From Scatophagus argus (Eukaryota; Chordata; Actinopteri; Scatophagidae): 64,000 nt of DNA. Made by a program: the position numbers and the translations under genes. Shown here in pieces: positions 3,362 through 47,268 of the stretch. The DNA lies in assembly GCF_020382885.2 (NCBI RefSeq), contig NC_058511.1, positions 1,979,001 through 2,043,000 on the forward strand. Reading direction: 5' to 3'. The stretch's first letter is position 1; every line of letters starts with the position of its first letter. The notes under the pieces were generated by a model. The model saw only the letters and a list, made by a program, of their open reading frames with translations, searched no databases and was not told where the DNA came from.

Positions 3362-11143
<7,782 letters not shown>

Positions 11144-17228: not shown

Positions 17229-20200
17229 ATGTCTCTGCTGGAATTAATCTTAATTTGTGCACTTCAGTTTGAAGGTAAAGCTCTGGTTGTTTATTTCACT
17301 GTGAATTCATTTGAAATGTTCATGACTTTTAAATAAGAAAGAAAATGTCACATTTTTTGCTTTAAGAAGTCACTTTGATGAGCTGTGATAAACCCATTAA
17401 GTAAAAATGAGCCAGCAGCTGTGTGAGACCAAAGCAGGATAGTAATTAAGACTGAGGTACTTTCAGACGGATTCTGACATGTAAACGATGATCAAGTTGT
17501 CTGTTTGCTCTCTCTGCTCTCTGTTGTGATGAAATATTCAAGTGCTTACAACATAACTTGATGCCCTTAGAGATCGGAAAGGATAATGAAAAAAACAAAA
17601 CAAAGACCGCAATGACATCAGAGCTGCAGATTTTATTTGTCACAGTCAGCCTTGATTTATTCTGATCAGCTGATGCCTTTTGTTTTTATTATTACTGAGG
17701 CATAAATGAAAATGACTCAACACAACCACTAGAGAGCAGAGGAGGGTCATGTTCACTGTTTAGTCTGCAAGCACATGGAGTCACTTCCTAAACAACATGC
17801 CTCTTTATCTTTCCAGTGTGCATCAGTGGAAACCCAACCAGAATGTACAAAAGAGATGGACAGGAAGCCATCCTGCCCTGTGGAATGGCATCACCCTCAG
17901 ACACAACATGCTCCAATTTTTCCTGGCTTTACAACAGAGATACATCTAAGACTTTGAATGTGTATGTTAGAGGAAGAATTGCAAAGGAGAGCTCAGGCCG
18001 GGCTGCCAGGCTGAGTCTGGGTGCTGGCTGCTCTCTGGTCATTACAAACGTCACTGCTGAGGATGCTGGTCTCTATACCTGTCGTCTGGGGACGACCCCT
18101 GATCAGGATGCACCTGTGTTTCTAAGTGTACTCACAAGTGAGTCTCATTTCCACAAAAACTCATTGAGACCCATTTTTGTCATTTGATTTTAGAAGAAAA
18201 AAAAATGTCAGTTTGTATCAAATTGTCTTACTGAACCTGAAAGGTCGTGATTCTGTTTAGTTCAGCCCATCTTATTTTTTGTCTCGTTTTAAAACAAATG
18301 AGACAAAAGATGAGTAGAAAGTTATCGTGGCCTTTGATTACAGTCGCAAACATTTTTCTTTTAACAGTCATCACTTGTTTTCTCTCAGTCTCTTCATCTC
18401 CACCAGAAGCTGGTCAAAAGAGGGACGGTGAGGTCACACTGAACTGCTCTCTGGTCAGATACAGCACACTCGGTCCTTGTAAACAGGACAGCATCCGCTG
18501 GGTGAATGAATCAGGAACTCTGCTGCATGGTGAAGGTGTTGGGCACAAGTTCCTCGGACAGAAGAACTGTTTGTCTCTTCTCTCTGTGAGTCAGAGTGGC
18601 CTCAGCAGGAAGTACACCTGCCAGCTGCTTGATGAGGAGAACAAAGTACTGATAGACGCTGACTACACACCTGATGGTCAGAAAGAACAAACTAACTCAG
18701 GTAAGATAATAAGCAGACCACAGCCATACAAAGCTGAGGTGTTCTTCTGTACACGACGGTTTGTTGATCAGGAGAACAAAAGCTAAGAGATGATGAGCCA
18801 GACATGTGAAATTAGGACGAGATTAAAATCATTTGACCATCAACCTTTTCTGATCATCCTCTGACTACAGATCAGACCTCCATCACCATCATCGCTGCAG
18901 TGGTCGGGGCGGTGGTGGTGTTGGTGGTGTTGGTGGTGGTGGTTATTGCTGCTGTTCTCATCAAATACAGGCAGAGAGCCAAAGTGACAGAAGGTCAGTA
19001 AAACATAAAACACAGTCTGTCTTTGAACCACTGATTGTATATAAAGATGGACAGCATGGCAGCTGAATCCAACACCTCTGTATTGCCCCCTGGTGGCTGG
19101 CTGCAGTAAAGGTTAGATGGCTTCATTTTGTACAGTGGGAGGAAGTTGAGACACTACATCCATCTTCCATATGCCAGTGGTTTAAATATAATGTGATACA
19201 CATAAAGTACAACACAATGAGATATGCTCTGCTGTGATACATGATTTGATCCGCAGCCTGCCATCACGTCCAACTTTCCAGAGGCGCCCCATTTATCCTC
19301 ATTGCTTCCACATATTCATGTGTTTTTTGTAAAGATGGTCACGTAGGGAGGGACCTGCGGCAGACATCGATTGGCTTTTAAAGGAGCCAATAGCAGTAAA
19401 TTTGTGTCACTGCCGTCATGCAGCTCGATGTCCGGTTAGCTGAGTCTGACTGGGAGCTCACAGAGACCAGGATTAATGTGAGCAGGGCTTGTCAAACACG
19501 GACTGAGTGTGTACAAAATGATCATATTTGATGACTAATCTCTGAAATTTTACCTTTTGTTCCAGATGTGCAAAAGCCAAGTCAGCAGCCTGTGAGTAAT
19601 ATGTGGCACAATCACAGGAGAAAAACCAGCTGAGCTGTTTCACCGTCAGATTCATACGCTTTCTGAAGTTTCCAACTCCTCACTTTTAGATTTGGTTTAA
19701 TTGAGATGTTAGAAGAAGCCTGGAAGCAGCAAATGTTCGTCAGTGGTTCACTGATCCGGGAATACTAATTCATCTGGATTCATCAGCAAAACTATCCAGC
19801 AAAATCCTGACTATCAATTCATGTGAGAGAAAGCTTCACAATCAGCATATTCACTTCCTGTTTGTGAATCCTTTGGCCACCAGTCGATGTAACTTCCAGG
19901 AGAGTCAGAGAGTGAGGAAGGTAGTCTGTGAACTGGACTGAATGTAACATGAAGGAAACTAAAAGGTTTCTCTCGTCCTTTAAAGTTTCTGCCTGAGTCA
20001 CGTCAGAGTTTCATCTGTAAAGCCGGTTGTTTAACAGTGGAGACAAAAAGCTCCCATGATCCCACGCTGCTTACGTCTTTTGCTTTAACTGAACCAGGAG
20101 AAGCCACACGCTTTGTGGTTAAGCTGTTCAGCAGATGCCAAGCACAAAAGTGACTTAGCAGTCCAGATTTCACAGTGATGTTAGAGCGTGTAAAGGAACA

Positions 20201-20858
20201 TGAGTGACAATGACAAGTTGAGGTTAACCACAGCGAATCACCTGCGGTCGCTGCTGCTACATCAGCACACACGCAGGAAGTCTCTTTGTCTTTGTACTTG
20301 TGTGCATTTTCGCATGTGGCTAAGAAACTTGTGTACCTTTTGTGTTTGTACAGAGCTGCCATGTTGTTTGCACTCAGGATGAGCCGGAGAGCAACCTGAC
20401 ATACATCACCATCAGCCACGCTAACCAACAGGCCTCCTCTAGGCAGAAGGTGAGTGATTTAAACTCCTATATTAGCTCAGCTCTAGTTTCCTGCTTCAGG
20501 TTTAATTTGCTCTGCTCTGCGAGTTATTGCAGCCTGCAGCATGTGCTCACATTTGTGTTCATTATAAATCTCTCCGCGACAGACCAAAGTGTGTTTCCAG
20601 TTTTGTGACTGCAGTGTCAACGTGACAGTTTTCTCGTGCACAGCTGGCCTCATAAAGAAACAAGATTATTGATTATTGATGGTCATATATGGTCCTGATG
20701 TGTCTGAAAAGTGCTCACCACAAGGTGACTGGAATCATGTTAGACCTCCGCTTTGTGCCATACAGATCAGAAAGGCAGAGGAAGTCACTTATTCCACAGT
20801 GAAGACACCAGACAAAGATCCCAGCAGCCTGTACAGCTCCGTCGGCTGGCCAAAATAA
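17229..20858 (+). CDS. Receptor E: two-Ig-domain membrane receptor with three ITIM-like motifs
   Basis: Exons: 17229-17274 (signal peptide), 17817-18137 (V domain), 18389-18700 (C-like domain), 18871-18993 (transmembrane), 19566-19591, 20354-20449 and 20766-20858. Extracellular exons are phase 1-1 and tail exons phase 0, giving 338 residues. The V domain has four cysteines (ILPCG, TCSNFSW, GCSLVI, YTCRLG), the extra pair resembling CD300/pIgR-like folds. The C-like domain also has four. The membrane helix is very Val-rich (AAVVGAVVVLVVLVVVVIAA) and is followed by KYRQR. The tail contains LTYITI, VTYSTV and SLYSSV, each fitting S/I/V/LxYxxI/V/L, so recruitment of SHP-type phosphatases and an inhibitory role are expected. 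An upstream in-frame ATG exists, but MSLLELILICAL is the better signal start. The fish subfamily name cannot be fixed by eye. Confidence 0.85.
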
Positions 20859-21975
20859 ATCAGGGGAAGTGACACCTCCCACAGTGTCGCGCCGAGACGA
20901 CCTGCTGCCGGTGTGTTTTCTGTCTGCTGGGAAGTGGGCGGATGTGTCTCAGCACTCCTATGAAACACTGAGCAGCTGTTTTGACCTTGATGTTGCTTTG
21001 CTCAGCGTGAGGACGGTTGCTCTGTTAAAGTGGACACTGAGGACAGACGGACTCTGCAGTCTGTCACTGCGCTTCGTCACAAGATAAAGTGTAAATACTT
21101 ATTGCTTCTTTGGAGCTTCAGGGTGTTTTTTGAATTTTTCATTTGCACTCTTGTAGGATCCAGTGGGTTGCCTGCTTATTGCTTTTGTTGCCAGTCAAGG
21201 GATTTTCTTTTGTTCTTTATTTTGTTTCAAGACTCAACTGAGGGTCTGTCTTCCCGCCTCTCTAAGAAACAAACCTGAACTCATCACAGTGATTTAATCA
21301 ACGCTGTGTCATTGATTTCATTTTGCTCAAAGTTACATTATCTTATCTGGCAAAGCAACTGAGAGCAGTGATCAAGTTGGATGTCCTCTGTGGTGAGTTC
21401 AGTGATAATCCGACATTTGAGAGTCAGCTGCTAATTGTAAAATTAAACCAAGAAGACAATCAAATAATCAAATGAGACACTGGGAAATTTCTTGATGAGA
21501 ATGTGAGTGAGTTGTTGCATCGAGAAGGTGAAATCTGTGGGTCCCTGAATGCGCTGAGACTGAGGCAGTCCCCACTCGACGCTGTACTGTGACATGGTCA
21601 AGGATTTAAGGAGAGTAAAAGTGTGGAGTGAACTTTGAAGCATCTCTGTGTTGATTTTCACAGTGAAATAAAATATCTTGAAAGAGTCAGACGTTTTGTG
21701 TGGTTACAGCTGACGACGGATGGATGATGTCACTGTGTACCAGCTGAGGGGATGTGCTGTGATCTCCCGCTGCAGGGCAAACAGGATGACAACAACTCTC
21801 CCTCTCCAGTGCAGTCATGCCAGTCATTGCATGTCAGCTTTGTACTGTGGTTTTGAACGATTGATGTTCATGTTTCATGTTCCTCCCTGTTGTGTCAGAG
21901 CTGGTATTTCCTGTAGCTCTCATCAAAAAAGCAACCTCCCCATAATAAAACATAAAACACTTAAAACTGTGTTAA
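20859..21975 (+). other. 3' region of receptor E, absent from the right arm
   Basis: This is downstream of the receptor E stop, with a poly(A) signal AATAAA at 21667-21672. The right arm lacks everything corresponding to about 20177-21975, including the last two receptor E exons, so this block was deleted there or gained here. Confidence 0.5.
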
Positions 21976-22593
21976 ATATGTGCTGTACTCAATATGGAGG
22001 ATGTTGAAAGTCTGTTATCAGCGTCCTTCACATGCAGTTCTTTTCCAAACATTCCTTGAACTGAGTCTGGTCAACACACTTTGTTGGCTGGTTCCTGGCG
22101 TCCTGGCTACACCAGGTTATTCCAACAAAGTGCTCTCTGGATCTCTGGATAATATTTCTCAGGATCAGTTAACAGCTTGTCCAAATCTGACCTTAAAAGT
22201 ACAACCACTGACACAGAGGGGCATCCTTTATCCTTCCAAAAACTGTGCCTGTTGCTTTTTGAAGGTTAGCTGATCTGGTGCTAATTATTTTTAATTGGTT
22301 ATATTTTTGAGAGGGATAGAGTGAGTTCTGTTGATTAATCTCCTATATGAAAATGCCAAGAGATGGGCTGTACTTTTCAGCAGGTCTGTGGGAAGACTGT
22401 AGGTTGTATGCAGATGCCACCAGCAAGGAGTGAATTTTCCAAAAAATACATAAATAAGCAACAAATCAATTTTATCAAGGTGAAACACACTGTGCTCAAA
22501 CTCAACTGAAACAACTCAGAAAAACCAGAACATCTTGGAGTTAAAGTAACCCGGGCTCACGCATTCATGCCTTTCATTAGAATTTTTTTTTTA

Positions 22594-23554
22594 AAGCGAA
22601 AGTGCTGCATGAGGGTGGTGAAGAAGATGAAGAGCTCCATCTTGGCCAGACTCTCTCCAAGACAAATCCTGTGACCTGTGAGAGGCACAGCAAAAGGAAA
22701 ATGTTCACCTCATCTGTGCACAGGTGCATTTAGAGTTCTGACTGCCCAAGGGAAGAAACAGTTTTTTAGCCTGTTTGTTTTGTACCTGATGGATCTAAAC
22801 CTCTGCTCAGAGGGCAGCATGTTGAACAGGTGGTGGTTAGGATTAAGGTGGTCTTTCATGATCAACCTGGCTCTGGTGAGACACCTAGAGCTGGCGATGG
22901 TGTCCAGGTAGGGGAGTGGGCAAGCGATCACCTTCTCTACAGTGCTAATAACCCTCTGTAGTCTCTTCCTATTGGCCATTGTACTGCCAGCGTACCACAC
23001 AGGGATGGCGTGCGCCAGCACGCTCTCGATTGTGGCCCGACAGAAAGAGACCAGAAGGTCAGTTTCAGCCTGTTCCATCTCAGGACCCTCAGGAAATGGA
23101 GGCACTGCTGGGCTTTTCTGATGAAGGCAGATGTGTTAGCTGCCCAGGACAGTTCCTCAGAGATGTGGGTCCCCCGAGGAACTTGAAGGTGGGCACCCTC
23201 TCCACAGTGACCTTTTATGTGGGGGGGGTGAGACACACCAGAGTGGTGTCATTGGCAAATTTTATGATGGTGTTGCGGGGATGTGTGGGGGTGCAGTCAT
23301 GGGTGTAGATGGTGTACAGAAGAGGGCTCAGCACACAGCCCTGTGGGGGGTAAGGTGTTGTAGGGCCTCTTGAGGTCCAGCTGCAGCAGGTTACCCAGCA
23401 GGGGAAGTGGTCTGGGTCCCGGGGGCTCCTTCCTGTCTTCCTTTGAGCTGTGGTTGGAGGAGGAGGAGATGAGGTAGATGAGCAGCAGGACCACCAGAGC
23501 CCCCAACAGGGAGACAGAACTGGAGGACTGGAGAAAAAGGTCTAACACCCCCAT
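22594..23554 (-). pseudogene. CYP2K pseudogene D' (exon 1 and partial exon 9 only)
   Basis: Exon 1 (ATG at 23554 down to about 23351) encodes the same anchor and proline hinge as gene D ([33 protein letters not shown]). Exons 2-8 are missing. At 22594-22675 the beginning of exon 9 survives (rc of the heme-loop codons), with 42 bases of intron 8 beside it to 22717. The heme-loop acceptor area reads GTCACAGG rather than GTCGCAGG. The space between is occupied by non-LTR retrotransposon sequence. The rest of exon 9 and its 3' flank are deleted, joining directly to sequence that lies about 350 bases past exon 9 in gene D. It is the inverted-repeat partner of intact gene D and cannot encode a P450. 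Confidence 0.85.
22718..23350 (-). mobile_element. Non-LTR retrotransposon RT fragment inside D'
   Basis: On the minus strand the DNA reads a reverse-transcriptase C-terminal half: a GCVLSPLLYTIYTHDC-type block, FANDTTLVCL (catalytic ADD box degraded to AND), HISEELSWAANTSAFIRKAQ, then, after a frameshift near 23100, CRATIESVLAHAIPVWYAGS and FRSIRYKTNRLKNCFFPWAV. These are hallmarks of fish L2/Rex1-like LINEs. It is absent from the corresponding position in the right arm, where intact gene D stands. Confidence 0.75.
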
Positions 23555-25635
23555 GACTATAAAACAAACTGTGTTTGGAAGCTGCCAACACAGCTGACTG
23601 ATTCTGTTTCCTCGTGGAGCGTTCGGCTCAGTTTCACCAGTGAGAGGTCATTTTTGTCCATGTCAGCTGAAGGGGATGGGCCATATGTGAAAAATGTCAA
23701 TGTTAGTAAATATTTACTTTCCTGGCATTTGTCCAACAAGGCTTTTTGTCGTTTAACTATATGTTCATGCTTTTAAGTGAATGAGAAGGAGACAGGGCTT
23801 AAAGGTTAACAAGCGCGGAGAAGAGGAATGGAGGATTCGCAAACTGACAAACGACCTCACAAACCCCCATCCCAGTCCACCTCTCAAGTAAGTCTAAGCT
23901 TTCCACGACACACATAGAAATGTGTAACTGCTTAAAATGTATACATATATAAGTGTAATGTTGACACAACTACTGGCTGAGCAGCTTTTCAGTATTTACC
24001 CAAAGCAACAATCTCTCCATCAAGTTAAAGTTCTTTGCCTTGGATTTCCATTAACTGCAATGATCTTCTTACAAATTCTTTGTGCTTCTGTGTTTAAAAC
24101 ATTTAGAGTATCGTTGTATATTTGTTGTAATTTTGCAGGTGTTGTGTGATATAGATGACTTAAAGGCCAGACTACTGAGGAGGCATTTCAGGCACGTTCA
24201 GGATCAACGTTCTTTGTAGGACAGAACAGTTCGCTTTGGCACGGACTTACTAATATGTTAAAATGTTACTAATAAAGTAACAATAAAAGAAAGGGATAAA
24301 ACTCATAAGGCATGAAATGGTCTCTTTAGTCTTTGCTGTTCAGGGCCAACAGGGCCAAGAGGGTCAAGACTCTCAGGAACAGATGGACAGGATGTACAAA
24401 GGTAACAGAGACTGATTACAAGACTGCAAGATTACAAGATTACAAGCCTGACTGAACATTTACTGTGAGGAACTTTGCGACAGTAACACAAATACGTTCA
24501 TGTAATAAAAGGCTTTTTTCAAGTCATATGAGATATGGGATATTCATTTTCCATGGTTTACAATTTCCAGGTAAAAGATTCTGTAAGACTCTATATACAT
24601 ATACATGAGCTGTGGGCAGTTTCCCAGTAGGCTGGCACGTCTAAACCCCTTGGTTAATTTTCCATGATGACAGCAAGCTGGCTCAGTCTTTTCTCTTGCT
24701 GGGACGGCTCCACCACTTCTCCCCATTGACTTACATGTTACTGGTGTCAGATGCTGTGGCTCAGAGTTTAACACAGTGGATGAAGACGGACGTCTGTCAG
24801 TTATCAAGACAGATAGGCAGAAACGAATGAAGGCAGATGTGGAGAAACCGCTTCCCAAGAAATGAAGAATCTAGACGTGAATACTGACAAAGATTGATCA
24901 CAGAGAGGTTTTCTGCAGTGGATCCCTATATCATCACTTATGACCCATTAGAAGAGACCCTGTCTGAATTTTCTTACTCTCTATCCTTGTAATCATATAG
25001 ATTGACTCCTCATATCAGTCATTTTGTTTCAAAACAAAAACTTTACAACAAAAAGTGCAGGCTCTGGCTCAGACTTGTTTTGTTGGCTTTCACTATTGCA
25101 TCACGTGCTGTTGTTATTCGTGTGCGTTCCTATCCCTTAGGAGTTCAATAAATGTCTTGATTTAAGTTGCTGTATTTGTATTTTCCTTTGTAACAGAGGT
25201 GGAAGTGGAATCAGAATTAACAAATCAGCAGCTCAGAAGGTGTAGCCTGAAGAAAACATGTCTGTCTGAAGTGCACAGCTGTGGTCCCACTTACCTGTCC
25301 AGGTAAAACTCACCTCTTCACTTCCGTGAATCCCTGGACAGACTTATTATCTCTTGCTTATCATATCAGTGTTACAATATGACATTTAAGATAACAGAAG
25401 TGCAAACTCATCACTGAAGTCATGATACAAACCAAGCTTTGTTCTGAAAGGTGCTGACAAGTGTTTTACTCCCCATTCTGGGCAAAATAATCCACACATT
25501 AGCCCTACCCCAGAGCTGGGCTGTTTTGTTTACTTACAGTTACATAAGGCAGCTCCCCGAGACAAATCACTCACGGTGCCAAAGGCGGCTGGCGTGACAC
25601 TTGATACTCGCAAGGAAACATTTTCTTCTGAAGTC
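23555..25635. other. Divergent intergenic region between D' and CYP2K gene A
   Basis: No gene was found. It is the inverted counterpart of 40114-41760 between genes B and D, so both arms keep the same head-to-head spacing. A TATA-like ACATAAGG at 25542-25549 lies about 90 bases upstream of the gene A start, and the equivalent is present upstream of gene B at 40201-40208. Confidence 0.55.
25542..25549 (+). promoter_or_regulatory. TATA-like box of CYP2K gene A
   Basis: ACATAAGG occurs 87 bases upstream of the start codon. The same spacing is seen for gene B (rc at 40201-40208), and a better ATATAAGG lies 96 bases upstream of gene C. Conservation of position across paralogues supports a core promoter role. 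Confidence 0.4.
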
Positions 25636-28600
25636 ATGGGGGTGTTAGACCTTTTTCTGCAGTCCTCCAGTTCCGTCTCCCTGTTGGGGGCTCTGGTGGT
25701 CCTGCTGCTCGTCTACATCATCTCCTCCTCCAGCTTTAGCTCCCAGGATGACAGGAAGGAGCCTCCGGGACCAAAACCACTTCCACTACTTGGTAATCTG
25801 CTGCAGCTGGACCTCAAGAAGCCCTACAGCACATTAATGGAGGTCAGGAGATTGTCTTGCAGTTTATTGTTTCTGTTTATGTGTGTTTTTTCTGTTGGAA
25901 AATGTCATGACATTGTGCTCCTGTTCATAGCTTTCCAAGAAATATGGATCAGTGTTCACCGTTTATTTAGGACCCAAAAAAGTGGTGGTTCTGGCTGGAT
26001 ACAAGACGGTGAAGGAGGCACTTGTTAACAATGCAGAAGAGTTTGGTGAAAGAGATCCGCTGATATTAGCACAAGAAAATAACCAAGGACATGGTATGGA
26101 AAGAAAAATAATTTTCCCATCCTGTTTAACTTATCCTCGCTCAGTTTATCTGACATTGGCAGTGGTGGTGCTCACTGCTCCTGTGTGTTTCACTGCATGT
26201 TGCATGTGTGTGTTCAATCAGTGATGAGTTAAGTTTGAAGATATGCAATTATTTTTTAATTAATTAATATTGATTAATTAAAAAATAATTCATTCCTATT
26301 TTCAGGTGTTATATGGTCCAATGGGGATTTATGGAAGGAGATGAGGCGCTTTGCCTTGACAAACCTGAGAGATTTTGGGATGGGCAAGAAGGCATGCGAG
26401 GACAAAATCATTGAGGAATGTGGCTACCTCCTTGAAGTGTTTCAGAAATTTAAAGGTAAGTGTTGCATTATAACCAACCAGGTAACATTTGGGACTTTAT
26501 TAGTTTGTGCAGATTGTACATCCTTTCAAGAGATAGTAAATCCTCAGGATTTCTTGTCTCCCCTGTCACAGGAGAAGCTTTTGATACAACCCAACCAATG
26601 AACTATGCAGTCTCTAATATTATCTGCTCCATCGTCTATGGCAGCAGATTTGAATATGATGACCCGGAGTTTACATCCTTGGTAGATCGAACAAACAGAA
26701 ATATTCAACTTGTTGGCTCTCCGTCACTGCAGGTCTGTTTATTAAGCTGGGATTTTCACCACTAATATGCATATAAATAGAAACTGAACAGGAGAAGTTA
26801 TTTCATTTCACTTACCTGATAACACTGATATACATTTTTTGAACAGTTGTACAACATGTTCCCATGGATCGGCAAATTGATGAATGCCAATAAGGAATTG
26901 CAAAAGCTGATTTCTGCCAACAAAGAACAGAACTTAAGGCTGTTCAGCCGTCTGAAGGAGACCCTCAATCCACAGTTGTGCAGAGGCTTTGTGGATGCCT
27001 TTCTGGTCCAAAAGCAAAATCTGGAGGTTGGGAAGCATTTCATCACCTGTCAAAAATGCTGTTATGCCTATTGCTGTTAAGATTTAAGAAGAAGAATGAT
27101 TTTTCAAATTATGTTTGAACATGCAGACTTTAAATGATTGTGAGGTGGTGCAAAGCTTCAAGTAATTCAAGATCCTTATAAGAAAGGACCTGTGGGCTGG
27201 AAAGCATGATAAGCACTACGAGACCTATATACATACATATGCCATGTTAAAGGAGGGCCACCGATATGTTCAAGGTTCCTCCCTGCCCACACAAATGGCA
27301 TGATAATATACTGATAAGGCAAAGCTTTGCACATAATGGCTTACACTATGTGAGACATAAAGAGCAACCTTGGAGCGTCTGTGGGCATTTTTCTGTTATG
27401 GTAAAAGTGTGTAGGAAAGAAACACGTTGTTGGCCACAAGTTCATAAGACGACCTTCAGTGCCACTGTGTATAACTAGTAAGTAAGTGATAAACCAGGTC
27501 CTCTCACTCTTTGACCCAGTGTCTCCTGCTGGTTGAACAAGTTGTCACATTTACATCCTTCCCAGTAAGAGTACAGGTATCATGGACAAGGTGCAACCCA
27601 CACAGTCAACACTACTGCTTTAAAACAATGGCTCAGTGGTTCTTAAATGAAGGTAAAATATCAAAGTTCTCCAACAGATTTGTTTGATTAATTGCCTTCT
27701 TTACCTGCAGGAATCTGGGACCAATATATACTTCCACAACAACAATCTCATGTCGACAGTCCTGAACCTTTTTGCTGCCGGCACTGATACAACAGCAACT
27801 ACATTAAGATGGGGGCTTCTGCTTATGGCAAAGTACCCAAAAATACAAAGTAAGGACCTCAGGACCCTCATGGTAGCAACAATGGGCTGCATCAGCACCG
27901 AATTCATCTTTGTGAAAAGAAAAACTTTCCCTCTCCCAGACCAGGTCCAGGAGGAGGTGAGCAGGGTGATAGGAAGTCGCCAGGTGCAGCTTGAGGACAG
28001 GAAGAACATGCCCTTCACAGACGCCGTCATCCATGAGACTCAGAGACTGGCCAACATCGTCCCCATGGCAATTCCTCACAGAACGAGCCGAGACGTCACC
28101 TTCCAGGGTCACTTCATCAAGAAGGTCAGACTGACATAAACACACCCAATACAGAGGATCCGACTGCACTTGAAGAATGAATTAGTCCAGTAATGGTCTG
28201 AGTGGTTTAGACATGGCTGCCCTGAAGCAGGTGGATCCCTCTCCTGTCAACAAAGTTTTTCACTGTGTGTGTTGTCTGCAGGGGACCACAGTGTATCCTC
28301 TCCTGACGTCCGTCCTGTATGATGACACTGAGTGGGAGAAGCCACGCAGCTTTCATCCCGCTCACTTCCTGGACAAAGACGGGAAGTTCGTCAAGCGAGA
28401 CGCCTTCATGCCGTTTTCTGCAGGTTGGTGAACTTGGCCGTCGCTTCTTGTTGTTGACTTACTGACAAATGAGGTGAACATTTTCCTTTTGCTGTGCCTC
28501 TCACAGGTCGCAGGATTTGTCTTGGAGAGAGTCTGGCCAAGATGGAGCTCTTCATCTTCTTCACCACCCTCATGCAGCACTTTCGCTTCACTCCTCCACC

Positions 28601-28694
28601 TGGAGTTTCAGAGGACGACCTGGATCTGACTCCACGTGTGGGCTTCACCCTCAACCCTTCACCTCACAAACTGTGTGCTGTTTCCTGTATGTGA
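25636..28694 (+). CDS. CYP2K gene A, complete cytochrome P450
   Basis: Exons: 25636-25842, 25931-26093, 26306-26455, 26572-26732, 26847-27026, 27711-27849, 27940-28124, 28282-28423 and 28507-28694. The 163/150/161/142-base pattern for exons 2, 3, 4 and 8 is typical of CYP2 genes. The product is 504 residues. It has an N-terminal membrane anchor (about 8-33), hinge [12 protein letters not shown], helix C WKEMR (133-137), helix I AGTDTT (310-315), ETQR (366-369) and heme loop FSAGRRICLG with ligand Cys447. It should be an ER-bound, NADPH-P450-reductase-dependent monooxygenase of lipids or xenobiotics; the substrate is unknown. Sequence features match the fish CYP2K subfamily. Exons 7-9 and their introns are nearly identical to gene D although the 5' halves differ. 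Confidence 0.93.
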
Positions 28695-28825
28695 ACAGCA
28701 GGTGCTGAAAATGTTTGGCTCACTGTCAGCACATCAACTAAATTACATTCAAAAGTGCAGGTTTTGATTTGAAATTATATTCCATGTAGTGCAACACCAC
28801 TGATTATGTTCAATATCAACAACGT

Positions 28826-30560: not shown

Positions 30561-30597
30561 CTCACTGACTTCAGTTTGGGTGATGAATGGATCACCC

Positions 30598-35777: not shown

Positions 35778-36155
35778 GGTCTCACAGAAAGAGGTTCCTG
35801 CAACCTTTGGCTCCTATAAGTGATTTAGCCTCCATCCAGAATTAGTAAATCATTAGAAGACCTCTGTCTGTTGACCTGCTTCCAGTCATGATATAATTCA
35901 TCCAGCGTTGTCCCCGACCCCCTTGTCAAAACCAAGCTAAAAAAATGCTTGTATTTTGAGATATTCTGTCCAGCCCTCAAATCAGTAGGTGACCGAATGG
36001 GATCACTGGTGTTACAATTAGTTCAAAGATCAGGACCCAACATGCAGACACATCGAACTCAGGGAACAACGGACGAACTGACACAGAAGGAGAACACAAC
36101 ACGGCTTAAATTCACAAAGGAGACCAGGCACAGGGGAAAACAATCTGGCATTTAC

Positions 36156-36161
36156 TTTATT
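36156..36161 (-). terminator. Poly(A) signal of CYP2K gene B
   Basis: AATAAA on the minus strand, 132 bases past the gene B stop. It mirrors the gene A signal. Confidence 0.6.
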
Positions 36162-36292
36162 AAGTCGTTGATATTGGACATATTCAGTGATGTTGCACTA
36201 CATGGAATATAATTGCAAATCAAAACCTGCACTCTTGAATGTAATTTAGTTGATGTGCTGACAGTGAGCCAAACATTTTCAGCACCTGCTGT

Positions 36293-39200
36293 TCACATAC
36301 AGGAAACAGCACACAGTTTGTGAGGTGAAGGGTTGAGGATGAGGCCCACACGTGGAGTCAGATCCAGGTCGTCCTCTGAAACTCCAGGTGGAGGAGTGAA
36401 GCGAAAGTGCTGCATGAGGGTGGTGAAGAAGATGAAGAGCTCCATCTTGGCCAGACTCTCTCCAAGACAAACTCTGCGACCTGCGGGACATTCATCACAG
36501 GAAGAAGTGCAAGACATGTGCCAGTAGACTGAACAATAACAAGGAGTATCGCTTGAAAACCCACAAACCTGAGACCTGCACAGCAAAAGGAAAACGTTCA
36601 CCTCATCTGTCAGTAAGTCAACGACAAGAAGCGACGGGCAAGTTCACCAACCTGCAGAAAACGGCATGAAGGCGTCTCGCTTGACGAACTTCCCGTCTTT
36701 GTCCAGGAAGTGAGCGGGATGAAAGCTGCGTGGCTTCTCCCACTCAGTGTCATCATACAGGACGGACGTCAGGAGAGGATACACTGTGGTCCCCTGCAGA
36801 CAACACACACAGTGAAAAACTTTGTTGACAGGAGAGGGATCCACCTGCTTCAGGGCAGCCATGTCTAAACCACTCAGACCATTACTGGACTAATTCATTC
36901 TGCAAGTGCAGTCGGATCCTCTGTATTGGGTGTGTTTTTGTCAGTCTGACCTTCTTGATGAAGTGACCCTGGAAGGTGACGTCTCGGCTCGTCCTGTGAT
37001 ACGGCATGGGGACGATGCTGGCCCGTCTCTGAGTCTCATGGATGACAGCATCAGTGAAGGGCATGTTCTTCCTGTCCTCGAGCTGCACCTGACGACTTCC
37101 TATCACCCTGCTCACCTCCTCCTGGACCTGGTCTGGGAGAGGGAAAGTTTTTCTTTTCACAAAGATGAATTCGGTGCTGATGCAGCCCATTGTTGCTACC
37201 ATGAGGGTCCTGAGGTCCTTACTTTGTATTTTTGGGTACTTTGCCATAAGCAGAAGCCCCCATCTTAATGTAGTTGCTGTTGTATCAGTGCCGGCAGCAA
37301 AAAGGTTCAGGACTGTCGACATGAGATTGTTGTTGTGGAAGTATTTATTGGTCCCAGATTCCTGCAGGTAAAGAAGGCAAACAAATCTGTTTGAGAACAT
37401 TGATATTTTACCTTCATTTAAGAACCACTGAGCCATTGTTTTAAAGCAGTAGTGTTGACTGTGTGGGTTGCACCTTGTCCATGATACCTGTACTCTTACT
37501 GGGAAGGATGTAAATGTGACAACTTGTTCAACCAGCAGGAGACACTGGGTCAAGAGTGAGAGGACCTGGTTTATCACTTACTTACTAGTTATACACAGTG
37601 GCACTGAAGGTCGTCTTATGAACTTGTGGCCAACAACGTGTTTCTTTCCTACACACTTTTACCATAACAGAAAAATGCCCACAGACGCTCCAAGGTTGCT
37701 CTTTATGTCTCACATAGTGTAAGCCATTATGTGCAAAGCTTTGCCTTATCAGTATATTATCATGCCATTTGTGTGAGCAGGGAGGAACCTTGAACATATC
37801 GGTGGCCCTCCTTTAACATGGCATATGTATGTATATAGGTCTCGTAGTGCTTATCATGCTTTCCAGCCCACAGGTCCTTTCTTATAAGGATCTTGAATTA
37901 CTTGAAGCTTTGCACCACCTCACAATCATTTAAAGTCTGCATGTTCAAACATAATTTGAAAAATCATTCTTCTTCTTAAATCTTAACAGCAATAGGCATA
38001 ACAGCATTTTTGACAGGTGATGAAACGCTTCCCAACCTCCAGATTTTGCTTTTGGACCAGAAAGGCATCCACAAAGCCTCTGCACAACTGTGGATTGAGG
38101 GTCTCCTTCAGACGGCTGAACAGCCTTAAGTTCTGTTCTTTGTTGGCAGAAATCAGCTTTTGCAATTCCTTATTGGCATTCATCAATTTGCCGATCCATG
38201 GGAACATGTTGTACAACTGTTCAAAAAATGTATATCAGTGTTATCAGGTAAGTGAAATGAAATAACTTCTCCTGTTCAGTTTCTATATATATGCATATTA
38301 GTGGTGAAAATCCCAGCTTAATAAACAGACCTGCAGTGACGGAGAGCCAAGAAGTTGAATATTTCTGTTTGTTCGATCTACCAAGGATGTAAACTCCGGG
38401 TCATCATATTCAAATCTGCTGCCATAGACGATGGAGCAGATAATATTAGAGACTGCATAGTTCATTGGTTGGGTTGTATCAAAAGCTTCTCCTGTGACAG
38501 GGGAGACAAGAAATCATGAGGATTTACTATCTCTTGAAAGGATGTACAATCTGCACAAACTAATAAAGTCCCAAATGTTACCTGCTTGGTTATAATGCAA
38601 CACTTACCTTTAAATTTCTGAAACACTTCAAGGAGGTAGCCACATTCCTCAATGATTTTGTCCTCACATGCCTTCTTGCCCATCCCAAAATCTCTCAGGT
38701 TTGTCAAGGCAAAGCGCCTCATCTCCTTCCATAAATCCCCATTGGACCATAAAACCCCTGAGAATATCAATGTGCTTGAATTACATATCTTCAAGTATAT
38801 TTTTACATTCACTGAAATTCTTCTGTGCATTTAACTCATCACTGATTGAACACACACATGCAACATGCAGTGAAACACACAGGAGCAGTGGGCTGCACAT
38901 CAGGCACCCAGGGAGCAGTTGGAGGGGTTGGGTGCCTTGCTCAAGGGCACCAGTTGTTACCAATATCCAGTGGCGGGCCGTGCATTTGTTACCTGGGACT
39001 TCAGTGGGAACATACCTGACTTAGTCCACCTCTTAATACAACCACTGTCATGTCACAATTATAACAAAACATTGAAACTATCCAAAAACACAATATGACA
39101 GGGTGTGGAATTAGAGAGAGAGGAATTTCGTGTGTTGAGGATAATTACCATTATTAATACAACAAGAAACACGGTTAAGACAACTCCATACCTCTACACT

Positions 39201-40113
39201 ACAACTGCAACCGTGCCATGTACATCATCTGGAGCAGTACAGGTTTCTGAGATCTGATTGGTTAAAGAAACAGTCAATGCCTAATATAGTCTAAACTTCG
39301 TGGGTCAGCACTACTGATTCTGAACGCCCGGCAGGTTAGACTGACATGGCAACATATAGAGGACAAAAATCGAACAACCACGTACTGATATACTGATTCT
39401 GATTCTGATCACGTACTAGAAGTGGCGCAGCTGAGAGAAATGCTGCGAAATGAAGAGAAACTGTTGGGAATAAATTAACACAATTTCATGGAACAAATAT
39501 TAGAATTTAGGTTGTAAATTTGGGTCAGTGCTTCTGATAGTGTTTAGCCCAGCAGAGAAGGCCTTGCTGGCTCTGACGGCCCGCCACTGCCAATGTCAGA
39601 TAAACTAAGCGAGGCTAAGTTAAACAGGATGGGAAAATTATTTTTCTTTCCATACCATGGTGTTGGTTATTTTCTTGTGCTAATATCACCGGATCTCTTT
39701 CACCAAACTCTTCTGCATTGTTAACAAGTGCCTCCTTCACCGTCTTGTATCCAGCCAGAACCACCACTTTTTTGGGTCCTAAATAAACGGTGAACACTGA
39801 TCCATATTTCTTGGAAAGCTATGAACAGGAGCACAATGTCATGACATTTTCCAACAGAAAAAACACACATAAACAGAAACAATAAACTGCAAGACAATCT
39901 CCTGACCTCCATTAATGTGCTGTAGGGCTTCTTGAGGTCCAGCTGCAGCAGATTACCAAGTAGTGGAAGTGGTTTTGGTCCCGGAGGCTCCTTCCTGTCA
40001 TCCTGGGAGCTAAAGCTGGAGGAGGAGATGATGTAGACGAGCAGCAGGACCACCAGAGCCCCCAACAGGGAGACGGAACTGGAGGACTGCAGAAAAAGGT
40101 CTAACATCCCCAT
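36293..40113 (-). CDS. CYP2K gene B, complete cytochrome P450, inverted partner of gene A
   Basis: Exons in transcript order: 40113-39907, 39818-39656, 38757-38608, 38491-38331, 38216-38037, 37361-37223, 37132-36951, 36793-36652 and 36480-36293. The product is 503 residues. Motifs: [42 protein letters not shown] and [10 protein letters not shown] with ligand Cys446. It differs from gene A by a three-base in-frame loss in exon 7 (about 36997-37005) that turns the [10 protein letters not shown] region into VPMPYHRTS, plus an L-to-R change just after ETQR. Both are in the substrate-recognition-site-5 region, so specificity or activity may differ. Intron 8 is a fusion of two intron types (see findings). 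Intron 2 carries a SINE remnant and a hAT-like element. Confidence 0.92.
38836..38958. repeat. SINE-like dispersed repeat in gene B intron 2
   Basis: Contains gaacacacacatgcaacatg, ggagcagtgggc and gtgccttgctcaagggcacc, a block widespread in fish genomes. A related copy is at 52690-52850. A shortened, inverted copy survives in gene A intron 2 at about 26160-26225. Confidence 0.6.
38968..39589. mobile_element. Non-autonomous hAT-like element with 8-bp target duplication
   Basis: The termini are inverted: cagtggcgggccgt at the left and acggcccgccactg at the right. They are flanked by ccaatatc (38960-38967) and ccaatgtc (39590-39597), an 8-base target duplication with one mismatch, as expected for hAT superfamily elements. 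The 622-base interior has no transposase frame. The gene A intron carries a single ccaatgtc at the matching place. Confidence 0.75.
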
Positions 40114-41760
40114 GACTTCAGAAGAAAATGTTTCCTTGCGAGTTTCAAGTGCCACACCCAGTTGCCTTTGGCTCTGTGAGTGGTTTGTCTCGGGGAGCTG
40201 CCTTATGTACCTGTAAGTAAACAAAACAGCCCAGCTCTGGGGTAGGGCTAATGTGTGGAATATTTTGCCCAGAATGGGGAGTAAAACACTTGTCAGCACC
40301 TTTCAGAACAAAGCTTGGTTTGTATCATGACTTCAATGATGAGTTTGCACATTTTGTTATTTTAAATGCCATATTGTAACACTGATATGATAAGCAAGAG
40401 ATAATAAGTCTGTCCAGGGATTGAAGGAAGTGAAGAGGTGAGTTTTACCTGGACAGGTAAGTGGGACCCAGTTACTTAAGCCGAATCGAGCCTTCCACAG
40501 CTGTGCACTTCAGACGGACATGTTTGTTTTCTTCAGTCTACACCTTCTGAGCTGCTTGTTAATTCTGATTCCACTTCCACCTCCGTTACAAAGGAAAATA
40601 CAAATAACCTGCAACTTAAATCAATCCTAAGGGATAGGAACGCACATAAATGTATGTGTATGTATATAGAATCTTGCAGAATCTTTTGCCTGGAAATTGT
40701 GAACCATGGAAAACGATTATCCCGTATCTCATATGACTTGAAACAAAAGCCTTTTATTATTATTATTACAAAATTGTGTTACTGTGGCAAAGTTCATCAC
40801 TGTAAATGTTTTCTATCGGTCAGACCTGTACATCCTGCATCTGTTCCTGAGTTCTGCTGCTGAATAGTTGACAGAAAACATTATGATACTCACACAGTAA
40901 CAGACAGATCAGCCTGAGAGTCTTGACCCTGTTGACCCTGTTGGCCCTGAACAGTACAGGTTAAAGAGACCATTTCATGCCTTATGAGTTTTATCCCTTT
41001 CTTTTATTGTTACTTTATTACTTATTTTTTGTGCATGCAGAACAAAGTTACAAGCCCAAAGTCCATGCCAAAGCGAACTGTTCTGTCCTACAAAGAACGT
41101 TGATCTTGAAAGTGCCTGAAACGCCTCCTCAGTAGTCTGGCCTTTACTTCTTTAAGTCATCTACATCACACAGCACCTGCAAAATTACAACAAATATACA
41201 ATGATACTCTAAATGTTTTAAACACAGAAGCACAAAGAATTTGTAAGAAGATCATTGCAGTTAATGGAAATCCAAGACAAAGAACTTTAACTTGATGGAG
41301 AGATTGTTGCTTTGGGTAAATACTGAAAAGCTGCTCAGCCAGTAGTTGTGTCAACATTATACTTATATATGTATACATTTTAAGCAGTTACACATTTCTA
41401 TGTGTGTCGTGGAAAGCTTAGACTTACTTGAGAGGTGGACTGGGATGGGGGTTTGTGAGGTCGTTTGTCAGTTTGCGAATCCTCCATTCCTCTTCTCCAC
41501 GCTTGTTAACCTTTAAGCCCTGTCTCCTTCTCATTCACTTAAAAGCATGAACATATAGTTAAACGACAAAAAGCCTTGTTGGACAAATGCCAGGAAAGTA
41601 AATATTTACTAACATTGACATTTTTCACATATGGCCCATCCCCTTCAGCTGACGTGGACAAAAATGACCTCTCACTGGTGAAACTGAGCCGAACGCTCCA
41701 CGAGGAAACAGAATCAGTCAGCTGTGTTGGCAGCTTCCAAACACAGTTTGTTTTATAGTC
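40114..41760. other. Divergent intergenic region between CYP2K B and D
   Basis: Head-to-head spacer, the inverted copy of 23555-25635. No exon is supported. It probably contains both promoters: rc ACATAAGG for gene B at 40201-40208, and no clear TATA for gene D. Confidence 0.5.
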
Positions 41761-44647
41761 ATGGGGGTGTTAGACCTTTTTCTCCAGTCCTCCAGTTCTG
41801 TCTCCCTGTTGGGGGCTCTGGTGGTCCTGCTGCTCATCTACCTCATCTCCTCCTCCTCCAACCACAGCTCAAAGGAAGACAGGAAGGAGCCCCCGGGACC
41901 CAGACCACTTCCCCTGCTGGGTAACCTGCTGCAGCTGGACCTCAAGAGGCCCTACAACACCTTACTGAAGGTGAGGGAGTGACTCGAATGAAATTACTTT
42001 TTTTTACAGCAATTTACTGTGTCATAATACTTAAAACACATTTAAGCAATAACTAAGACTATCGTTCTTAGCTTTCCAAGAAATATGGATCAGTGTTCAC
42101 CATTTATTTTGGACCCAAAAAAGTGGTGGTTCTGGCTGGATACAAGACAGTGAAGGAAGCACTTGTTAACAATGCAGATGAGTTTGGTGAAAGAGATCCG
42201 CTGTTATTAGCACAAGAAACTACCCAAGGCCATGGTAAGAAAAGAAAGACCAGAGCCATTCATTTTAACTTGCAGTCTACATACTGCAGTCTTCAGTCTT
42301 CGTATACTTTACAAAACATTTTTAACCTCAGGGGTTTTATGGTCCAATGGGGATTCGTGGAGGGAGATGAGACGTTTTTCTTTGACAAACCTGAGGGACT
42401 TTGGGATGGGCAAGAGGGTGTGTGAGGACAAAATCATTGAGGAATGTGGCTACCTCATGGAAGTGCTTAAGAAATTTAAAGGTAAGCATGTTTTCTTTTC
42501 TCAAACGTGATTAGATACCTTTGGGATGTTTTTCATGTGTTTTTTGATTGTGTTTTTTTCTCCCCTTTTTGAAGGACAAGCCTTCAATACGACTCAGCCA
42601 GTGAACTACGCAGTCTCTAATATTATCTGCTCCATTGTGTACGGCAGCAGATTTGAATATGATGACCCCAGGTTTACATCTATGGTAGACCAAACTAACA
42701 AGAGGGTTCAGCTTCTGGGCTCCCCATCGCTACAGGTTCCATTCACCAGCTTCGTCAAACTTTCACTGTGTCGACTTCAACCTTCATGTTATTTTAAACA
42801 CTGGTGAACACACAGTAGACGCAGTATTTATTTTCTGTGTGTTTGTTTTGCAGATGTACAACCTGTTCCCGTGGATCTACAAATGGGTTGGTGAGAAAAC
42901 AGAATTTAAAAAGCTCACCGCCTTCATTAAGGAGCAGAACTTGGACCTGTTCAGCCGGCTGAAAGAGACCTTCAACCCACAGATGTGCAGGGGGTTTGTG
43001 GACGCCTTTCTGGCCAGGAAGCAAAATCTGGAGGTTTGGAAGCTTATCTGCTATCAAATTAGTATCACTGTTTGTTTATTTATTTATCCTCTATTCAGCC
43101 AGTCTGCTCTTCCAGGGAGACCTGGTTAATTTGTTGTTAGTTGGGATTTAAAACATTTTTTTTTTACAGTGATTTGTTAATGTGTTTTGGTCATGATTTC
43201 CAAAATGCAAATTAGGCATGACTTTAGTATTAAATTTTAAAACAGTCACAAAGATTGATTTGATTAGATTTTTTCATTGAATTTTTGTGTTTAATATTTA
43301 CAGTGTATAAATTGTTGAGATGTTGTTGAACATTTAATTATTAAAAATGCTGCACAGACAGCAGGAGACGGATGTGTGCCTGTGAACTTCAACAAAGGAA
43401 AAAGAAAAAAATTAAACTAACTTTGCGGCCTTTCAAGAATACGTTTAAATTATAATAAAGTTCAACCCCTGCTGATGCATAAACACGGTGGTCCGATGAA
43501 GGTCGTCGTTCTTTTTCACTACCAACAGATTTAATATTTCTCTCGAGCTGTTAACGTCACACTACATCTCTGCCTGCAGGAATCTGGGATGGCTCACAGT
43601 CACTTCCACAATGACAACCTCATGGAAACAGTCATGAACCTGTTTGTTGCTGGCACTGATACAACAGCAGCTACACTCAGATGGGCACTTCTGCTTATGG
43701 CCAAGTATCCAGAAATACAGAGTAAGGAGCAGTAAACAACTCACATATGTAAACATGCAACACAAGCTATGTGCTCCACCAGCACAAAAGTCAACAAACG
43801 TTTGCCTGGGCACCATGCTAACAGTGTCCATAAAAGTAAATGAATGTCATACAGTCACAGAATGATGAGGTTACTCCCATTTCATCTCCCAGACCAGGTC
43901 CAGGAGGAGGTGAGCAGGGTGATAGGAAGTCGTCAGGTGCAGCTCGAGGACAGGAAGAACATGCCCTTCACAGACGCCGTCATCCATGAGACTCAGAGAC
44001 TGGCCAACATCGTCCCCATGGCGGTGCCTCACAGGACGAGCCGAGACGTCACCTTCCAGGGTCACTTCATCAAGAAGGTCAGACTGACATAAACACACCC
44101 AATACAGAGGATCCGACTGCACTTGAAGAATGAATTAGTCCAGTAATGGTCTGAGTGGTTTAGACACGGCTGCCCTGAAGCAGGTGGATCCCTCTCCTGT
44201 CAACAAAGTTTTTCACTGTGTGTGTTGTCTGCAGGGGACCACAGTGTATCCTCTCCTGACGTCCGTCCTGTATGATGACACTGAGTGGGAGAAGCCACGC
44301 AGCTTTCATCCCGCTCACTTCCTGGACAAAGACGGGAAGTTCGTCAAGCGAGACGCCTTCATGCCGTTTTCTGCAGGTTGGTGAACTTGGCCGTCGCTTC
44401 TTGTCGTTGACTTACTGACAGATGAGGTGAACATTTTCCTTTTGCTGTGCCTCTCACAGGTCGCAGGATTTGTCTTGGAGAGAGTCTGGCCAAGATGGAG
44501 CTCTTCATCTTCTTCACCACCCTCATGCAGCACTTTCTCTTCACTCCTCCACCTGGAGTTTCAGAGGACGACCTGGATCTGACTCCACGTGTGGGCTTCA
44601 CCCTCAACCCTTCACCTCACAGACTGTGTGCTGTTTCCTGTATGTGA
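41761..44647 (+). CDS. CYP2K gene D, complete cytochrome P450
   Basis: Exons: 41761-41970, 42072-42234, 42332-42481, 42575-42735, 42854-43033, 43580-43721, 43893-44077, 44235-44376 and 44460-44647. The product is 506 residues. Motifs: [38 protein letters not shown] (preceded by FV rather than FA), ETQR and FSAGRRICLG with ligand Cys449. Exon 1 has one extra codon relative to A and B. Head-to-head with gene B. From about eight bases before exon 7 to the stop codon, exons and introns are almost the same as gene A, whereas upstream exons and introns are clearly different. Its left-arm partner is the D' pseudogene. Confidence 0.93.
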
Positions 44648-44890
44648 GGAGGAGGAGGGCTTGAAACTGCTGCGTGGCCCAGGGTGGTGGATTCGTCTTC
44701 GCTGAAGGCAGCGAAATGGTGCTGAAAATGTCGAACACTTGTGATGTGTGTAAGAAAATATATTTCTTGTATGGACTTTTTTTCATGATTTACTTAGAAA
44801 ACCAAATAATGACAAAACATTCACTCTTCTGTATGTTCAAATGAATTATAAAGTGTGCTAAAATAATTTTTAAGATGTGCTTAAATTCTA

Positions 44891-44896
44891 ATTAAA
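44891..44896 (+). terminator. Candidate poly(A) signal of CYP2K gene D
   Basis: ATTAAA about 245 bases after the stop. No AATAAA was seen nearer. Confidence 0.35.
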
Positions 44897-45605
44897 GGCA
44901 TGAATATGTGAGCCCGGGTTACGTTAACTCCAAGCTGTTCTGGTTTTTCTGAGTTGTTTCAGTTGAGTTTGAGCACAGTGTGTTTCACCTTGATAAAATT
45001 GATTTGTTGCTTATTTATGTATTTTTTGGAAAATTCACTCCTTGCTGGTGGCATCTGCATACAACCTACAGTCTTCCCACAGACCTGCTGAAAAGTACAG
45101 CCCATCTCTTGGCATTTTCATATAGGAGATTAATCAACAGAACTCACTCTATCCCTCTCAAAAATATAACCAATTAAAAATAATTAGCACCAGATCAGCT
45201 AACCTTCAAAAAGCAACAGGCACAGTTTTTGGAAGGATAAAGGATGCCCCTTTATGTGTCAGTGGTTGTACTTTTAAGGTCAGATTTGGACAAGCTGTTA
45301 ACTGATCCTGAGAAATATTATCCAGAGATCCAGAGATCCAGAGAGCACTTTGTTGGAATAACCTGGTGTAGCCAGGACGCCAGGAACCAGCCAACAAAGT
45401 GTGTTGACCAGACTCAGTTCAAGGAATGTTTGGAAAAGAACTGCATGTGAAGGACGCTGATAACAGACTTTCAACATCCTCCATATTGAGTACAGCACAT
45501 ATTTAACACATTTAATGATAAACATTTTTTCTTTAGCATTTAAGGAGGTTTTATTATGAAGACATCACTGTGAAATCTGGACTGCTAAGTCACTTTTGTT
45601 CTTGG

Positions 45606-46387
45606 TGTGGTAGGTGTGGTAGACTCCAGGTAGTAGGAGTTAGCCACACCTATTTCCTAATGGCTGGGCAAGGCTATAAAGGCCACCCCCAGTCTGCTGA
45701 GTCCTCCTCTCTGCTGCCTGGTGAGCCTGGGTGATCTTTTGTTTGCCACATTTGTTTTGTTTGGTTGTTTTTAGTGCCTTGTTTGAAATGCTATTTTAGT
45801 TAGCAGGGTACTCTGTTTATTTAGGTGTGCTGTGTTGTATATTTTGTGATTTATTACTTGCTGTTTTCCCTTAAGATTGGTCTTTTGTTGAACTCATGTG
45901 CAGATTTGTCTTTCTTTGTGTATTGTGCTGTAGGGTGTCGCTGCAGGCAGTTTGGTGGTGGGGATTTTCACCTGCGCCCCCTATTAGGGAACGGATGGTA
46001 ATTTGTGCACACCCTTCACTTTTTGCTTTTCTCCCTTTATGGTTAATTTGCTGTGTGAGTGTGTGTGGGTGTGTAGGGCACGGAGGGCTGGTGTGGTGCC
46101 CCACCCCATGTGAAATACTCCTGCTGCGGCCTCTGGCCCCTGCTGCCAATCCCTCAGCATTCTGTTGGTTTGTTTTTGTATATATGTATATTTTAAATGT
46201 CATTTTACAGTAAGGTTCTAATTTTTTTTTTTTAGATTTGTTGATTAATAAAATTGTAAATCTTGGGAGGGAAATCCTTGTCTCGTGGCCCTCACTGTAT
46301 CAGGAGAACCTGCATGTATTCTTTGATGTGGGCTGATTGGGCTGAGGTCAGTGTAATATCTGGGCCCAGTCGCCACTCCTGGTCACA
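45606..46387 (+). mobile_element. Probable solo LTR
   Basis: A 782-base insertion relative to the left arm. It starts TGTGGTAGG and ends GGTCACA (TG...CA termini) and is flanked by ttgg and ttgt where the left arm has one ttgg, consistent with a 4-base target duplication. Internally it has TATAAA at 45675-45680 and AATAAA at 46247-46252 in the right order for an LTR. No coding region is present. The retroelement family is not identified. Confidence 0.6.
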
Positions 46388-46937
46388 TTGTCATCTGCTG
46401 AACAGCTTAACCACAAAGCGTGTGGCTTCTCCTGGTTCAGTTAAAGCAAAAGACGTAAGCAGCGTGGGATCATGGGAGCTTTTTGTCTCCACTGTTAAAC
46501 AACCGGCTTTACAGATGAAACTCTGACGTGACTCAGGCAGAAACTTTAAAGGACGAGAGAAACCTTTTAGTTTCCTTCATGTTACATTCAGTCCAGTTCA
46601 CAAACTACCTTCCTCACTCTCTGACTCTCCTGGAAGTTACATCGACTGGTGGCCAAAGGATTCACAAACAGGAAGTGAATATGCTGATTGTGAAGCTTTC
46701 TCTCACGTGAATTGATAGTCTGGATTTTGCTGGATAGTTTTGCTGATAAATCCAGATGAATTAGTATTCCCGGATCAGTGAGCCACTGACGAACATTTGC
46801 TGCTTCCAGGCTTCTTCTAACATCTCAATTAAACCAAATCTAAAAGTGAGGAGGTGGAAACTTCAGAAAGCGTATGAATCTGACAGTGAAACAGCTCAGC
46901 TGGTTTTTCTCCTGTGATTGTGCCACATATTACTCAC

Positions 46938-46963
46938 AGGCTGCTGACTTGGCTTTTGCACAT
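46938..46963 (-). pseudogene. Relic of receptor E tail exon 5
   Basis: This 26-base exon with its acceptor and donor is preserved in reverse orientation within the right arm (it matches 19566-19591, encoding VQKPSQQP). The neighbouring receptor E exons are absent, so it is a by-product of the inverted duplication. Confidence 0.75.
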
Positions 46964-47268
46964 CTGGAACAAAAGGTAAAATTTCAGAGATTAGTCATCA
47001 AATATGATCATTTTGTACACACTCAGTCCATGTTTGGCAAGCCCCGCTCACATTAATCCTGGTCTCTGTGAGCTCCCAGTCAGACTCAGCTAACACAGCA
47101 CAAATGTCCTACTGCACAGAGGACAATGTATTTTAAAGGGCAGCACATGCATACATCAGTAATCCTTTAAAAAGGCGTGTAAAGTGTTTTAGAGTCACTA
47201 AGATGTCCAAGACAATTTGTAGAGGCCGCCTTGTGGGAAGTTTGGGCACTTCATCTCAAGCTATAAGC

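Follow-up and report, generated by a model that had tools for sequence, protein, structure and literature searches.

We describe here a cluster of cytochrome P450 genes that lies in and around a large imperfect palindrome in the genome of the fish Scatophagus argus. The window analysed is a stretch of 64,000 bp (C19:1979001-2043000; positions below are counted from its first base), which was compared with itself by BLAST at an E cut-off of 1e-10, retaining only matches of at least 100 bits. Seven inverted, colinear block pairs link 19435-29227 with 47094-35735, giving a left arm of 9,793 bp (+ strand), a right arm of 11,360 bp (35735-47094, − strand) and a spacer of 6,507 bp (29228-35734). A large inverted repeat with these limits, arm lengths and spacer had been proposed in a first-pass annotation of the sequence, and the self-comparison bears it out. 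According to self-BLAST and arm alignment, together with the exons of an immunoglobulin (Ig)-receptor gene, the left arm contains part of that gene, a P450 remnant (D') and gene A with its 3' flank; the right arm contains gene B, gene D and an Ig-gene intron fragment. The spacer holds gene C and relics of a long interspersed nuclear element (LINE) and of Ig-upstream DNA.

The four P450 genes were modelled with nine exons each, eight of eight introns in every gene having GT-AG borders and no model containing an inner stop. Gene A (25636-28694, + strand) encodes 504 residues, its arm partner B (36293-40113, − strand) 503, C (32075-35674, − strand) 505, and D (41761-44647, + strand), the arm partner of D', 506. 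A Pfam scan covering A, C and D found the p450 domain almost end to end in all three (E=9.3e-140, 8.6e-130 and 2e-139, respectively); the open frame of B is a gene model. The motifs AGTDTT, ETQR and FSAGRRxCLGE are present in the translations of all four genes, whose amino-acid identity to one another ranges from 69 to 97%, and the closest solved relatives of D, the only gene so compared, are CYP2B4 and CYP2C enzymes. Domain, motifs and the nine exons shared by all four are those of the CYP2 family. For the subfamily CYP2K the criteria are an amino-acid identity above about 55% to one of its named members and synteny with the CYP2W1 region; the genes are graded here, from their predicted proteins, as CYP2-type, and CYP2K is the first-pass annotation's name for them. 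Nine exons and frames of 1.5 kb agree with most of the CYP2K genes in the excerpted text of PMC5751882. A search of the six unspliced frames of the window for the heme motif FxxGxxxCxG returned no match because an intron splits FSAG|RRxCLGE, and a scan against Rfam gave no family at the gathering threshold.

D' (22594-23554, − strand) consists of exon 1 (23554-23350), complete except for its last 5 bases, a LINE fragment (23349-22718), and the tail of intron 8 with part of exon 9 (22717-22594). The LINE part matches ALKBH8_N (E=7.5e-8) and, below its cut-off, RVT_1 (E=0.002). D' is dead and not a gene. The order read in the first-pass annotation, with head-to-head pairs D'/A and B/D and gene C in the spacer, is right, except that one of the supposed pair members is a gutted remnant.

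The Ig-receptor gene (15454-20858, + strand) lies to the left of the palindrome and overlaps it. Its V-type exons at 15466-15822 and 17804-18160 match Pfam V-set with E=3.8e-5 (below cut-off) and 2.8e-9; a further domain at about 18375-18645 and a transmembrane exon at about 18837-18998 were modelled by eye. Two cytoplasmic tail exons (about 20378-20449 and 20766-20858, + strand), likewise modelled by eye, carry tyrosine motifs that we take to resemble immunoreceptor tyrosine-based inhibitory motifs. The outermost palindrome block, at 19435-20141 (+ strand), falls in the intron between the transmembrane and tail exons and has a 98.4% identical copy at 46388-47094. In a genome search the right arm was the only other full-length match to this block among those listed, and about 215 bp within it match dispersed repeats (69-79%). 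The right arm keeps the intron block and 44 bp more (45562-45605), without the tail exons; both matches found when the genome was searched with the tail are the left tail exons themselves. Since the whole Ig gene stands on the left and an intron fragment on the right, the right arm is probably an inverted copy for which the left arm served as donor. The right flank (47269-57700) contains more + strand Ig-receptor genes with V-set domains and tyrosine-motif tails, including tandem copies at 47269-49250 and 49432-51141.

From the outside inwards, the inverted block pairs are 19435-20141/46388-47094 (98.4% identity), 21965-22585/44883-45513 (97.3%), 22594-22717/44418-44541 (98.4%), 23350-24606/40654-41965 (90.2%, gaps counted), 25121-26168/39581-40646 (92.4%, gaps counted), 26170-28508/36567-38893 (96.5%) and 28444-29227/35735-36543 (92.1%, gaps counted). 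As had been claimed from the first reading, homology extends over coding, intronic and intergenic DNA, which self-BLAST, gene models and arm alignment all confirm. The lengths of the blocks make chance matching no issue. Global alignment of the whole arms was rejected as meaningless across the D' deletion (37-56% identity at about 20100-23300), and substitutions were instead counted block by block. In nine blocks of our choosing, spanning 6,327 of the 9,793 left-arm bases, 101 of 6,290 aligned bases differ by substitution (1.61%). The count leaves aside DNA with no partner (20142-21964, 22718-23349 and 24608-25114) and badly matching homologous DNA (24301-24607, 25115-25120, 26161-26319 and 28491-28514). 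Two windows of the arm alignment are only 66% (24314-24513) and 79.5% (26239-26438) identical, so that an identity of 98.4% is the figure for the well-aligned part.

A segmental duplication is recognised by paired DNA that extends over 1 kb or more and is no less than 90% identical. The present arms share 6,290 aligned bases at 1.61% divergence, with single blocks of 1-2.3 kb at 90-96% when gaps are counted, and by this measure qualify as an inverted segmental duplication. They are nonetheless patchy, only about 6.3-6.8 kb of each being common to both. A 507-bp stretch at 24608-25114 (+ strand) is confined to the left arm in the alignment, by gain there or loss on the right, and about 780 bp (45606-46387) are confined to the right. 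Substitutions are unevenly distributed over the blocks (chi-square p = 6e-5). Divergence is lowest (0.62%) from exon 3 to intron 6 of A and B, more than half of which is intron, and highest (4.0%) in the A/B 5' flank.

Gene B is a mosaic. Its intron 8 (36481-36651, 171 bp) reads as 83 bp of A-type followed by about 88 bp of C-type sequence (36481-36568, − strand; 98% to C, limits approximate), joined at or near CAGGT; this C-type DNA is not in A. Extra acceptor-like AGs have been left upstream of the distal one, which B needs for correct splicing; use of either nearer AG would lose the heme-cysteine frame, and with one of the two translation would run into a stop. To judge from the sequence, these AGs may hamper splicing and B may be impaired. 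The first bases of B exon 3 match D. In exon 7 a 16-residue stretch is replaced by one of 15 residues, at a place which we take to be substrate recognition site 5; no donor for this patch was found in the genome, the closest matches apart from B itself being D (94%) and A (92%).

Intron 2 of B further contains 686 bp (38895-39580, − strand) that the arm alignment shows to be absent from A. The stretch opens with an element bounded by 14-bp terminal inverted repeats (CAGTGGCGGGCCGT) and flanked by an imperfect 8-bp repeat (GACATTGG/GATATTGG), features that we presume to be typical of hAT elements. At the corresponding place A has CAGTGGTGG, resembling the start of the element, and both arms continue into a dispersed repeat, which in A is the adjoining 26170-26232. 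Since A keeps the apparent first bases of the element beside the dispersed repeat, gain by B and loss from A are equally likely.

The clearest mosaic tract joins A and D. In exons 1-6 the two genes are 80-95% alike and in introns 1-6 74-83% (forced alignments). Their likeness rises to 97-100% in a region that opens shortly ahead of exon 7, takes in introns 7 and 8 and closes shortly after the stop codon. Synonymous divergence (dS) is 0.431 in exons 1-6 and 0.040 in exons 7-9. The tract runs over 27932-28702 of A (+ strand) and 43885-44655 of D (+ strand), 98.2% identical over 771 bp, and has a counterpart in B at 37140-36285. It was assessed by a GENECONV-like permutation test of our own, with 2000 shuffles of a gapless alignment. 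Over the fragment 27983-28686, A and D have the same base at 197 of 205 variable sites. The mean maximum being 9.7, the score of this fragment is 182.6, which none of the 2000 shuffles reached; nor did any reach that of B-D, with agreement at 186 of 207 sites. C-D gave a weak signal (20 of 2000 permutations), and for C-A and C-B there was no significant tract (496 and 509 of 2000 permutations reaching the score; the C-type insert of B falls in gapped columns). A near-identical tract that includes introns and lies inside otherwise diverged genes is what conversion between paralogues leaves behind. In self-BLAST the matches of A and of B to D have identical end points in D. Because these limits are equal, the A-D conversion may predate the duplication, and we tentatively place the conversion of exons 7-9 before the copying of the arms.

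Gene conversion is thus evident, as the first reading had it, and the clearest instances are between paralogues (A with D in exons 7-9, and C into intron 8 of B), not plainly from arm to arm. Exchange between the arms is possible and faintly indicated. A palindrome kept uniform by such exchange, in the manner of mammalian X and Y chromosomes, is compatible with an origin by inverted duplication and would account for divergence as uneven as 0.62% and 4.0%. We consider it doubtful here. The unevenness is also explicable by the patches imported into B, and the strongest conversion lies between paralogues. Moreover, the well-aligned parts have a mean identity of 98.4%, not the >99% of the X/Y type, kilobase indels persist between the arms, and the dead copy of D stands uncorrected in one of them. 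The first-pass annotation had drawn a comparison with sex chromosomes; a palindrome of that type, held identical by conversion, is not supported by these data.

The same divergence bears on the quality of the assembly (570,666,677 bases in 48 contigs). It was a concern that two haplotypes, or a misplaced contig, had been joined head to head, and 1.6% is indeed of allelic size. Different DNA follows the arm ends on each side, however, so that two false joins would be required. The window holds no N, and the contigs of this 570.7 Mb assembly are few. Kilobase indels set the arms apart, one arm has an open gene where the other has a gutted one, and B holds DNA of its neighbour C that is absent from A. 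Finally, in a genome search with a stretch of gene A, long near-identical DNA occurred only in this cluster among the best 40 of 1057 candidates, the others being paralogues on C16 (72-82%) and roughly two dozen stretches of about 50-130 bp that match the dispersed repeat of intron 2 at 79-98%; a search with 19435-22585 returned, among the best 40 of 211 candidates, the right arm and otherwise dispersed-repeat matches at 69-79%. Assembly error of either sort is unlikely on these grounds.

The spacer leaves room for a different history of the inverted layout. DNA from upstream of the right-hand Ig genes (47108-47783) has an inverted relic at 29947-30663 (− strand), which is interrupted by a dispersed LINE fragment at about 30137-30591 (RVT_1, E=2.3e-8; at least 39 copies elsewhere at 88-89%, among the matches listed). 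The two relic pieces, 29947-30138 and 30596-30663, are 81-94% identical to 47108-47783, and the homology stops at most about 5 bp from 47094, the edge of the palindrome, the last bases being judged by eye. These older inverted repeats lie just outside the segment from about 30684 to 47094. A unit of Ig intron, D and A could therefore have been duplicated in direct tandem, and the segment then inverted through them. With the segment turned round again, A, B and C come to lie on the same strand and the two units follow each other directly repeated. One-strand layouts of CYP2K genes occur in zebrafish (PMC3012610) and in each killifish cluster (PMC5751882), as far as the excerpted texts of these reports go, and the other cluster of near-relative P450s in the present genome, at 13.25-13.29 Mb of C16, is likewise a direct array with all matches on the + strand. 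Set against this, the relic follows the first unit with no equivalent after the second, where only about 60 bp separate the arm from the start of C; simple insertion of a copy at 47094 would make the homology end there just as well; and two events are required instead of one. We regard tandem duplication with subsequent inversion as unlikely, while giving it some weight.

We favour, as probable, the view that a small birth-and-death P450 cluster has recently undergone an inverted segmental duplication. The ancestral locus would have comprised an Ig-receptor gene followed by a head-to-head pair of a D-like and an A-like P450, and gene conversion probably made exons 7-9 of this pair near-identical first. 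A segment of about 9.8 kb, which began within the final portion of the Ig gene and ended 0.5 kb beyond A, would then have been copied in reverse beside gene C, giving rise to B and D. Afterwards exons 2-8 of D' would have been deleted and a LINE fragment would have entered it; the Ig tail exons would have disappeared from the right arm, which would have acquired about 780 bp; sequence from gene C would have passed into B; and the hAT-like element of intron 2 would have come to distinguish A from B. The outcome is four open-frame P450 genes and one dead copy, i.e. birth-and-death evolution with local conversion. In this account the arms, the gene models, the mosaic tracts and the DNA present in one arm only are observed, while the direction, the sequence of events and copying as opposed to misassembly are inferred. 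The insertion may also have touched C: its start codon lies about 60 bp from the right-arm edge (35674-35735), and since only this much of its own DNA precedes the arm, its promoter has possibly been replaced by the 3' flank of B. In this light the palindrome is a record of the cluster's latest growth step more than the organiser for which it had first been taken.

Several points weigh against inverted duplication as just set out. The layout could also arise by the tandem duplication and inversion considered above, and a divergence that two haplotypes of one fish could show means that identity by itself does not rule out assembly error. The direction of copying depends on one Ig gene, and we infer the ancestral order from one fish genome alone. 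With regard to the early date of conversion, the 3' limit of the A-D match coincides with the end of the matches of C to A and D, and its 5' limit lies at an exon edge, so that the common end points may reflect nothing more than where homology stops. A single event without later exchange is also too simple, because block counts vary beyond what one clock allows.

Outside the P450 genes, the neighbours of the cluster seen in the window are the Ig-receptor genes and a transporter-like reading frame of the major facilitator superfamily type (3257-4096; Pfam MFS_1, E=9.5e-11). Frames resembling a Tc1/mariner transposase fragment were recognised by eye at 54386-54635, and a direct repeat, 97% identical, occupies 60090-60699 and 62029-62634. 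Two units of the C16 array (C16:13251679-13290514), offset by 8,035 bp, look nearly identical, as in a recent tandem copy.

The locus preserves a readable history of how a detoxification cluster can grow, through copying in inverted orientation, conversion of the catalytic half in pieces and the death of one copy. A practical consequence is that A, B and D, being nearly identical in exons 7-9, will be confused by short reads, by primers and in gene trees built from 3' halves. Instability and inversion polymorphism, both raised in the first-pass annotation, may follow from such a structure. Should the spacer prove to be inverted in some fish, the locus would lend itself to tests of how xenobiotic genes change in copy number and orientation. 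One may go further and suppose, as a quite speculative and improbable extension, that the palindrome is still active, its 6.5 kb spacer flipping between fish, and that the P450 copies exchange exons 7-9, the heme-binding half, and diverge in the substrate-binding half, which would amount to a modular route to new detoxification enzymes.

Conversion in which part of a P450 gene is overwritten by its neighbour is familiar from human CYP2D6/CYP2D7 and CYP21A2/CYP21A1P, which are direct repeats with one pseudogene partner; here both conversion partners have open frames. Mammalian X and Y palindromes (PMC8981503, PMC6790999) share with the present one, in the excerpts of these reports, gene-bearing inverted arms that flank a spacer. 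The arms in the excerpt of PMC8981503 are held above 99% by frequent conversion, in contrast to the present ones with their lower identity, large indels and one dead copy. The palindromes of Folsomia candida, as presented in the available part of PMC5490193, also bear genes and formed by inverted duplication; their host is a springtail, an arthropod, and the two cases described hold Dscam2 and zinc-finger genes. The CYP2K arrays of zebrafish and killifish (PMC3012610, PMC5751882) are, on the evidence of their excerpts, similar clustered expansions of mostly nine-exon CYP2 genes, but each lies on one strand, whereas the Scatophagus cluster is inverted and head to head. No palindromic CYP2K cluster was found in the literature among the listed titles and abstract openings. 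The nearest case is CYP2K38 and CYP2K38pseudo of Kryptolebias marmoratus, described in the partial text of PMC5751882 as a gene with a pseudogene on the opposite strand, the two being 98% alike and separated by about 1 kb. That pair consists of single genes, whereas the Scatophagus unit covers about 9.8 kb and takes in two genes as well as part of an Ig gene, the spacer of 6.5 kb contains a further gene, and conversion has occurred between paralogues. The Scatophagus palindrome is hence a larger and better-marked case of a kind already known, and a fairly ordinary example of growth in a P450 family.

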